From Armatimonadota bacterium (GTDB taxonomy: Bacteria > Armatimonadota > Zipacnadia > Zipacnadales > JABUFB01), in the NCBI GenBank assembly GCA_013314775.1, contig JABUFB010000006.1, forward strand, positions 1 to 64,000: 64,000 nt of DNA, in the 5' to 3' direction. The translations under genes were made by a program, and so were the position numbers. Shown piece after piece: positions 38,881 to 40,908 of the stretch. The first letter of the stretch is position 1, and every line of letters begins with the position of its first letter. A model generated the notes under the pieces. That model was given only the letters and a program-made list of their open reading frames with translations. It was not told the DNA's origin and ran no database searches.

Positions 38881-39141
38881 ATGAGCAAGCGAGTCGGCGT
38901 CATTGTCTGCATTATTGAGGATCCGGAGCAGCACTCCGACCTGTTCAACGCTGCCCTCCACGGCTTCACTCACCTCATCCGAGGGCGCATGGGCTGCCCC
39001 TTCCACGAGCACGGCATCGGCGTGGTTTCTCTCACAGTGGTTGCCACAGTAGACGAGATCAATGAGCTTACCGGGCGGCTTGGCAATGTGCCGGGCGTGC
39101 AGGCCAAGACCGCCATCAGCAGGCGTGAGATCGACGATTGA
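38881..39141 (+). CDS. TM1266-like ACT-fold regulator of iron-only hydrogenase
   Basis: 86 residues. SKRVGVIVCIIEDPEQHSD, GRMGCPFHEHGIGVVSLTVVATVDEINELTGRLGNVPGV and TAISRREI match the small ACT-like family exemplified by Thermotoga TM1266, which is encoded beside hydG. The ATG 38881 start has GAGGGAGC just upstream. It probably senses a small ligand or helps control hydrogenase genes; the mechanism is unknown. The hydG-like gene follows at once. Confidence 0.88.
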   Translation: MSKRVGVIVCIIEDPEQHSDLFNAALHGFTHLIRGRMGCPFHEHGIGVVSLTVVATVDEINELTGRLGNVPGVQAKTAISRREIDD

Positions 39142-39179
39142 CGGGTCGGCCGCAAGGCCGGGAAAGGGATGCATTGAGC

Positions 39180-40658
39180 ATGGCGACCGCGGAACTTCCT
39201 CCCAGGCTGCAACAGTGGGTGGACGGAGTCATCAAGCCGGAACAGATCGAACGCTACCTTGACAACGGCAAGTGCTTCATCGACGAGGCCGCCATCTGGC
39301 GGACCCTCGAAGAGAACCGTAATCCAGATGAGAAACGCATTCGCGACATCATGGACAAGTCGCTGGCGATCCAGCGGCTGGACCCGGATGAACTCGCCGC
39401 GCTCCTGCACTGCAACGATGAGGACCTCTGGCAGGAGATCTACGCCACCGGCCTGGAGATCAAGCGCAAGGTGTACGGCCGGCGCATCGTTTTCTTCGCG
39501 CCGCTCTACGTGGCCAATCTCTGCGTCAACAATTGCGCCTACTGCGGCCTGAGGCGGGAGAACAGCGCCATCGTCCGCCAGCGCCTGAACATGGACCAAC
39601 TGCGGGCCGAAGTGCGGGCTTTGGTGAGCAAGGGCCATAAGCGGCTTATCATGGTCTACGGCGAACATCCCAGCACCGATGCGGACTACATCGCCGAGAC
39701 CATCAGGGTTGCTTACGAAACCAAGGTCGGCAATGGCGAGATCCGGCGGGTCAATGTGAACGCCGCGCCATTGAGCATCGAGGATTTTCGCAAGCTGCAC
39801 GAGGTGGGAATCGGCACCTACCAGGTGTTCCAGGAGACCTACCACCGGCCCACGTACGAGAAGCTGCACCCCGCCGGGACGCTCAAAGGCCACTACCTGT
39901 GGCGCCTGTATGCCTTGCACCGCGCCCAGGAGGCAGGCATCGACGACGTGGCCATCGGCGCTCTGTTCGGCCTGTATGACCATCGCTTCGAGGCCATGGG
40001 CCTGCTTGCGCACACGATTGATCTCGAAAAGCACTTCAACGGCGTGGGTCCGCATACCATCAGCTTCCCGCGCATTGAGCCCGCGGTCAACACGCCGTAT
40101 CTCGAGAACCCCGAGTACAAGGTGCCTGACGACCAGTTCAAGAAGATCGTCGCTGCGCTGCGCCTCGCAGTGCCATATACCGGGATGATCCTTACCTGCC
40201 GTGAGACTCCGGAAATGCGGCGCGATGTCATCAACGTGGGCATTACCCAGATCGACGCCGGGTCGAATATCACCATTGGCGGGTACCAGGAGGAACAAGC
40301 GCGCGGGGAAAAACAGCAATTCATGCTCTCCGACAGCCGCTCACTGGATGAGGTAGTGCGAGAACTGGCCGAGCAGGGCATGATCACCTCCTTCTGCACC
40401 GCAGGCTATCGCTGCGGACGCACCGGCGAGTACTTCATGAAGATCGCCAAGGCCGGCAAGGCTCACTGCCAGTGCATGCCCAATGCGATCCTGACCTTCA
40501 AGGAGTACCTGCTGGATTACGCCTCGCCCGAGACTCGCGCGGTGGGCGAGCCGCTGATCGAGAAAGAGATCGAGCAGTTGCCTATCGAGGAGCTGCGCCG
40601 GTTCGTCCGCGACGCCATCGCCCGTATTGAGGCCGGAGAACGCGATGTCTACGTCTGA
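39180..40658 (+). CDS. hydG: [FeFe]-hydrogenase maturase HydG (radical SAM), altered auxiliary motif
   Basis: 492 residues. HydG cleaves tyrosine to make the CO and cyanide ligands of the hydrogenase H-cluster precursor. The radical SAM cluster motif CVNNCAYC (Cys 115, 119, 122) is intact. The rest aligns well: KRLIMVYGEHPS, FQETYHRPTYEKLHP, TISFPRIEPA, ITQIDAGSNITIGGY. In the C-terminal region canonical HydG has CTACYR...C (Cx2Cx22C, auxiliary cluster). Here it reads CTAGYRCGRTGEYFM...CQCMPNA, so the second cysteine is Gly 409, while extra cysteines occur at 412 and 430. hydE, hydF and the hydrogenase itself are not in the window. Confidence 0.92.
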   Translation: MATAELPPRLQQWVDGVIKPEQIERYLDNGKCFIDEAAIWRTLEENRNPDEKRIRDIMDKSLAIQRLDPDELAALLHCNDEDLWQEIYATGLEIKRKVYGRRIVFFAPLYVANLCVNNCAYCGLRRENSAIVRQRLNMDQLRAEVRALVSKGHKRLIMVYGEHPSTDADYIAETIRVAYETKVGNGEIRRVNVNAAPLSIEDFRKLHEVGIGTYQVFQETYHRPTYEKLHPAGTLKGHYLWRLYALHRAQEAGIDDVAIGALFGLYDHRFEAMGLLAHTIDLEKHFNGVGPHTISFPRIEPAVNTPYLENPEYKVPDDQFKKIVAALRLAVPYTGMILTCRETPEMRRDVINVGITQIDAGSNITIGGYQEEQARGEKQQFMLSDSRSLDEVVRELAEQGMITSFCTAGYRCGRTGEYFMKIAKAGKAHCQCMPNAILTFKEYLLDYASPETRAVGEPLIEKEIEQLPIEELRRFVRDAIARIEAGERDVYV

Positions 40659-40908
40659 TGACCTGAGGTCCGCGCTGGAGACCGAGGTCGAGCGGTTCCG
40701 GACCATGTACCCGAACAGCACCGTGCGCTTCGCGGAAGTCCTGGGCAAGCGGGTCTCCCACGTGGCCGGACCCACCGATGATCTCCTGGTGGGTGAGTTG
40801 CGGTATCCCGTGAACGACCGGCTGGTGATGTTCGTCACAAACGGAGACGGGCTGACGGAAGACGACCTGAGACGCTTCGCGGTGCAGGTGGCGTGGGTGG
40901 TCAGCTGA
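40645..40908 (+). CDS. Small protein of unknown function coupled to hydG
   Basis: 87 residues from ATG 40645, overlapping the hydG stop by 14 bases, with GGAG seven bases before it. The sequence (HVAGPTDDLLVGELRYPVND, EDDLRRFAVQVAWVV) is charged, without membrane segments or cysteines. I recognise no family. The tight overlap implies translational coupling with hydG. Confidence 0.7.
   Translation: MSTSDDLRSALETEVERFRTMYPNSTVRFAEVLGKRVSHVAGPTDDLLVGELRYPVNDRLVMFVTNGDGLTEDDLRRFAVQVAWVVS

Follow-up and report, generated by a model that had tools for sequence, protein, structure and literature searches.

The window analysed here, a stretch of 64,000 nucleotides, is part of contig C6 of an Armatimonadota genome of 6.1 Mb, assembled in 37 contigs and 98% complete. 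It contains a compact unit of three genes on the forward strand. The first gene (38881-39141) encodes an 86-aa protein of the TM1266 family, a putative regulator of iron-only hydrogenase systems, which scores 85.7 bits against TIGR03959 (curated cut-off 60.8) and 80 bits against PF21699. We noticed no difference between this protein and its family, and its dN/dS relative to the same-genus homologue is 0.02. The second gene (39180-40658) encodes a HydG of 492 aa, the radical-SAM tyrosine lyase of H-cluster maturation, with a dN/dS of 0.03; a TTG codon at 39138 is an alternative start, from which hydG would overlap the stop of the TM1266-like gene. The third gene (40645-40908) overlaps the hydG stop by 14 bases and encodes an 87-residue protein, here named P87. 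Regarding the other maturation and hydrogenase genes, no match to hydE, hydF or hydA was found within the 64,000-nt window. The genome-wide search proposed in the initial annotation located all of them on other contigs (C10, C13 and C14): HydE (C14:31598, 323.7 bits) and HydF (C14:35487, 559.5 bits), both above their cut-offs, and five proteins with an [FeFe]-hydrogenase domain (PF02906). On C14 the order is hydE, one other gene, a gene for an aspartate/fumarate-type lyase, and then hydF. The three-gene unit of the initial annotation is therefore present as described, but it does not stand alone, and variant hydG genes elsewhere are found in operons with hydE, aspA, TM1266 and hydABC, which also contradicts a stand-alone island.

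The window protein is a genuine HydG, both by curated model and by fold. It scores 498.7 bits against the HydG equivalog TIGR03955 (cut-off 312.15) and stays below the cut-off of the ThiH model TIGR02351 (273.5 against 380 bits), and the C-terminal HydG domain is present. Its AlphaFold model (pLDDT 93.9) superposes on the solved HydG of T. italicus (4wcx) with a Z of 54.8 and an rmsd of 1.3 Å over 453 residues, from residue 26 to 492 and with the C-terminal domain included; the two sequences are 50% identical over their whole length. The radical-SAM motif CX3CX2C (CVNNCAYC, C115-C119-C122, at 39522-39545) is invariant in an alignment of 67 rows, and the window protein keeps the residues that do not vary among these 67 HydGs, His278 and the radical-SAM cysteines among them. 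His278 aligns with the region of the dangler-binding histidine of T. italicus HydG. The likeness to 4wcx and to the HydG of C. hydrogenoformans (4rtb) thus comprises a whole-length match, the radical-SAM motif, the first and third auxiliary cysteines and the position of His278. In contrast, both solved proteins have the auxiliary motif CX2CX22C (CTACYR), whereas the window protein has Gly409 and C412, with the spacing CX5CX19C.

In solved HydGs an auxiliary [4Fe-4S] cluster is held by three cysteines, its fourth iron being connected to the dangler iron, and the iron that this cluster carries goes on to form the hydrogenase active site. The bridged dangling iron of the auxiliary cluster is treated in PMC6212873, and a passage of PMC9431212 cites mutational work according to which the cluster is essential. 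The corresponding region of the window HydG (40395-40475) contains SFCTAGYRCGRTGEYFMKIAKAGKAHCQCMPNA in translation, and its motif reads C406-T-A-G409-Y-R-C412...C432; the alignment partner in 4wcx is SYCTACYRMGRTG...NFCLPNA. Relative to 4wcx, C406 corresponds to the first canonical cysteine and C432 to the third, C412 (codon TGC, 40413-40415) stands for Met and C430 for Asn. Gly409 (codon GGC, 40404-40406) occupies the place of the second cysteine in the alignment to 4wcx and 4rtb, so that translation and alignment confirm the CTAGYRC motif first reported for this gene. Gly409 and C412 are the same in the nearest named relatives, a same-genus Armatimonadetes MAG (L054/L043; HydG 97% identical) and a Candidatus Zipacnadia MAG (L055/L046; HydG 77% identical). 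Because the two residues are identical in independent genomes, a sequencing error at 40404-40406, which had been considered from the start, is ruled out. More broadly, the probability that Gly409 reflects an error of sequencing or assembly, or a decaying gene, is negligible: we found nothing in favour of it, and the dN/dS of 0.03 and the family score of 498.7 bits also stand against it. The two additional cysteines pointed out in the initial annotation are both real, but they differ in reach. C412 is found in most members of the clade defined below, and C406, C412 and C432 are all conserved in the alignment of the subfamily. C430 is limited to the window lineage and its nearest relatives, other residues being found in the next relatives, and as a local extra it was rejected as a cluster ligand.

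In order to place the motif, HydGs were compared across phyla. The first 80 loci were selected for their resemblance to the window protein, which biases them towards the variant, so more even samples were added, namely 199 Bacillota genomes, 61 genomes of Thermotogota (the phylum of Mesoaciditogaceae) and 60 relatives of the window genome. Among the 221 distinct HydGs aligned, a count that leaves out a degenerate paralogue that had fallen under D409, 128 have C409 only, 85 have C412 only, two have both and six have neither. Almost none of the 221 has lost C406 or C432. The HydGs with C412 only have Gly, Asp or Ala at position 409. Expressed differently, C412 is present in 85 of the 91 HydGs without C409 and in 2 of the 130 that have it. 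A tree of 151 HydGs, built without the motif columns (404-436), has a single clade of 89 rows (SH-aLRT 100) to which all variants belong, as do all HydGs accompanied by the small gene. Within this clade 59 members have C412 only, 23 have C409 only, two have both and five have neither, and the mutual exclusion of C409 and C412 gives a Fisher p of 2e-14 when shared ancestry is ignored. The state changes are few (13 on the tree, with five to seven independent contrasts for C409), which deprives a test corrected for ancestry of power: there were too few independent contrasts for pair tests of this kind, whether C409 was set against C412 or against the small gene. Gly409 is thus not an oddity, since a large branch of HydG shares the shift; all 62 HydGs outside the clade keep C409.

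The literal C-terminal motif CX2CX22C is absent from the window HydG (C406-X2-G409-X22-C432). It is equally absent from 64 of the 89 clade members, some of which are the only HydG in a genome that has HydF and HydA, and the spacing therefore cannot define the HydG family. According to a passage of PMC9431212, which cites Duffus 2012, HydGs differ in the residues that coordinate their C-terminal cluster, so the variability of the motif as such is already known. On both grounds we class the window protein as a variant subfamily of HydG.

The simplest and most likely reading of the aligned sequences is a replacement of C409 by C412 as a ligand. In the HydG model residues 408-411 lie in a short helix, and a shift of three residues would correspond to about one helical turn. 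The auxiliary [4Fe-4S] cluster with its dangler iron would then be bound by C406, C412 and C432, and the second ligand would have moved by three residues in an ancient clade of HydG. Re-ligation by the nearby cysteines, one of two explanations in the initial annotation, is accordingly supported for C412 by the way C409 and C412 replace each other across HydG, and unsupported for the poorly conserved C430. We consider it unlikely that the cluster is held by C406 and C432 only, assisted by water, Asp409, a histidine near 417 or the substrate cysteine, with C412 common but dispensable. The six HydGs that lack both C409 and C412, some of them in full operons (L122), fit such an arrangement, and they indicate that the enzyme may manage without a third cysteine at 409 or 412; however, dispensability does not sit well with the finding that 85 of 91 HydGs without C409 have a cysteine exactly at 412, a residue shared by just 2 of the 130 with C409.

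The six HydGs with neither cysteine (CTAGYRA, CTADYRL) belong to Ammonifex (L122, 5980-7458) and to loci L230 (2022-3599), L233, L236, L242 and L123. Several are in complete operons, that of L122 comprising HydE, AspA, TM1266 and the small gene. The Ammonifex protein has a cysteine at 417 and that of L123 one at 421; the remaining HydGs of this type have none between 406 and 432.

Regarding the product of the enzyme, no HydG other than that of the window exceeds the family cut-off in its genome, which also encodes HydE, HydF and five HydA-domain proteins; this makes the normal product by far the likeliest. The same holds elsewhere in the clade. In 20 of 21 other clade genomes sampled, the clade HydG is the only one above the cut-off. 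All 21 encode a HydF-like protein of full or nearly full length (three score slightly below the cut-off), and 20 have HydA, the exception being a 1.4 Mb Thermodesulfobacterium MAG in which the maturation operon is still present. The second explanation in the initial annotation, a different product, is not supported by this context. That the enzyme makes another product from tyrosine, or acts on another substrate, appears highly improbable to us: one textbook ligand position is indeed altered, and HydG and ThiH illustrate how one fold can serve different ends, but a changed function is difficult to reconcile with the genomes just described, with the variant HydGs encoded in hydrogenase operons elsewhere and with the retention of the HydG-invariant residues. 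The best-placed relative in this respect is Caldanaerobacter subterraneus DSM 13054 (L071/G064). Its sole HydG above the cut-off has the motif CTAGYRCGRTG, and the small gene directly follows hydG, as in the window; it differs in being 58% identical to the window protein and in having hydG apart from the hydF and hydrogenase genes. A passage of PMC4694547, citing Soboh 2004, reports an active NADH-dependent [FeFe]-hydrogenase of C. subterraneus subsp. tengcongensis, studied in the native organism. Because the subspecies differ, this is strong indirect evidence for a working variant, not proof. G071 (L136, L155) is the one sampled genome that has two HydGs above the cut-off, one with CTAGYRC and the small gene and one canonical without it.

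With a profile built from P87, relatives were identified immediately downstream of hydG in many phyla. The 92 distinct members include 85 whose gene either overlaps the stop of hydG or begins no more than 20 bp away, and overlaps with a gap of -13 or -25 recur very often. The view of the initial annotation that the 87-residue gene belongs to the unit and is undescribed is likewise supported. The small gene is found beside 52 of the 89 clade HydGs and beside none of the 62 others, clostridial types included (p = 2e-16, ignoring ancestry); no adjacent small gene was detected for 37 of the 89, some of these loci being short. Whole-genome searches gave a similar picture. Among the 199 Bacillota genomes the small gene is present in 13, beside a clade hydG in 12 of them and as an orphan in one. 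Among 61 genomes of the window and its Armatimonadota kin it is present in exactly three, which are the three with a window-type HydG. Genome G003, from the same family as the window genome, has a clostridial-type HydG, HydF and HydA, and lacks the small gene. This distribution, including the absence from G003, shows that the gene follows this HydG and not the hydrogenase or the lineage.

In Thermotogota the small gene also follows HydGs with the canonical C409 (CTACYR). These HydGs are in the same clade and have the same small-protein family directly after hydG, but differ from the window protein in keeping C409; presumably the pair is TM1267-TM1268. The small gene therefore tracks the clade and not the glycine, and the cysteine shift is not explained by the gene alone. 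The question raised in the initial annotation, whether Gly homologues co-occur with the 87-residue gene, is thereby answered at the level of the clade, with C409-keeping members included. As a marker of the Gly variant the small gene was rejected on account of the Thermotogota HydGs, and as a cysteine donor the small protein was rejected for the window, since P87 has no cysteine.

Two further observations concern genomes in which the HydG appears to have been exchanged. The clostridial-type HydG of G003 (L025, G003:C70:10273-11688) scores 724.5 bits, and HydG has apparently been swapped within the family of the window genome. The orphan small gene in Bacillota (L290, G316:C1:117936-118139) is a relic interrupted by an in-frame stop, and the HydG of that genome is of the clostridial type, a combination expected after HydG replacement.

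Beyond the overlap with hydG, P87 has a dN/dS of 0.13 relative to the same-genus copy, which identifies it as a real protein. In its family Arg36 is invariant, and Gly34 and Ser38 are nearly so. P87 has no match in Pfam, NCBIfam or the PDB; a Pfam match was found for none of 15 family members tested, and the family profile matched only designed proteins and, weakly, a lipoprotein in the PDB. No description of the family was found in the family libraries or the literature searched. P87 thus founds an unannotated protein family tied to one HydG clade. The predicted structure (pLDDT 90) has the order helix, four strands, helix (alpha-beta4-alpha) and is similar from end to end to domains of the GAF and roadblock types, with middling Z values of up to 9.2 and a Foldseek E of 0.03. 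The GAF protein 4mn7, a free methionine-R-sulfoxide reductase, gave a Z of 9.2 and 2.8 Å over 87 residues. GAF domains differ in their length (about 140 residues against about 87 in P87), there is no sequence match, and a Z of this size shows no function. The predicted fold may be described as mini-GAF-like.

Combining these results, we think it probable that the window protein is a genuine HydG, splitting tyrosine into CO and cyanide and holding its auxiliary cluster through C406, C412 and C432, and that the P87-type protein is most likely a HydG-specific partner. Such a HydG would build the Fe(CO)2(CN)(Cys) synthon for the [FeFe]-hydrogenases of its genome. In the clade hydG is usually followed by the overlapping gene of a small protein of predicted mini-GAF-like fold, here P87, whose step may be the loading of the cluster or of the dangler, or the hand-over of the synthon to HydE. 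Alternatively, P87 could regulate expression or be carried along as a passenger in a conserved operon, without taking part physically in what HydG does. This is possible, although we do not favour it: GAF-like folds often sense small molecules, the TM1266 protein of the same operon is itself annotated as a putative regulator, and 37 of the 89 clade HydGs have no adjacent copy detected. Against it are the absence of the gene beside all 62 non-clade HydGs, the gene overlap conserved across phyla, and the fact that the gene follows this HydG and not HydE, HydF or HydA, as G003 with its other HydG and no P87 illustrates. A more specific and rather doubtful proposal is that the P87 family is a fourth dedicated H-cluster assembly protein, which would bind the C-terminal domain of clade HydGs and either load the dangler Fe-cysteine or carry Fe(CO)2(CN)(Cys) from HydG to HydE; its presence could have relaxed the constraint on the ligand, so that C409 moved to C412 or was lost.

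A clade that spans many phyla and has a relocated ligand, together with six natural HydGs that have neither cysteine, offers ready-made variants for testing what the site needs. P87-type proteins are a concrete candidate for an unsolved step, either the loading of the dangler iron or the passage of the reactive synthon to HydE. In terms of annotation, searches with the CX2CX22C motif will miss these HydGs.

The hydrogenase complement of the window genome is also of note. A survey of 77 Armatimonadota MAGs (PMC10290634) reported no FeFe-hydrogenases; contrary to it, this genome encodes five [FeFe]-hydrogenase-domain proteins, two of which are sensor-like, with kinase- or PAS-like C-terminal regions (contigs C10, C13 and C14; L022-L024). 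A degenerate HydG paralogue on the minus strand (L022:7771-9297; matched part G000:C10:125785-127116) is flanked by a HydA of the bifurcating type and a sensor kinase with a HydA domain. The order HydA, degenerate HydG paralogue, sensor is repeated in L052, L053, L279, L280 and L282. The paralogues keep the radical-SAM cysteines and His278 and have lost 24-35 of 68 HydG-invariant residues; in the copy of the window genome all C-terminal cysteines are gone. The degenerate paralogue may represent an undescribed enzyme encoded in a locus for hydrogen sensing.
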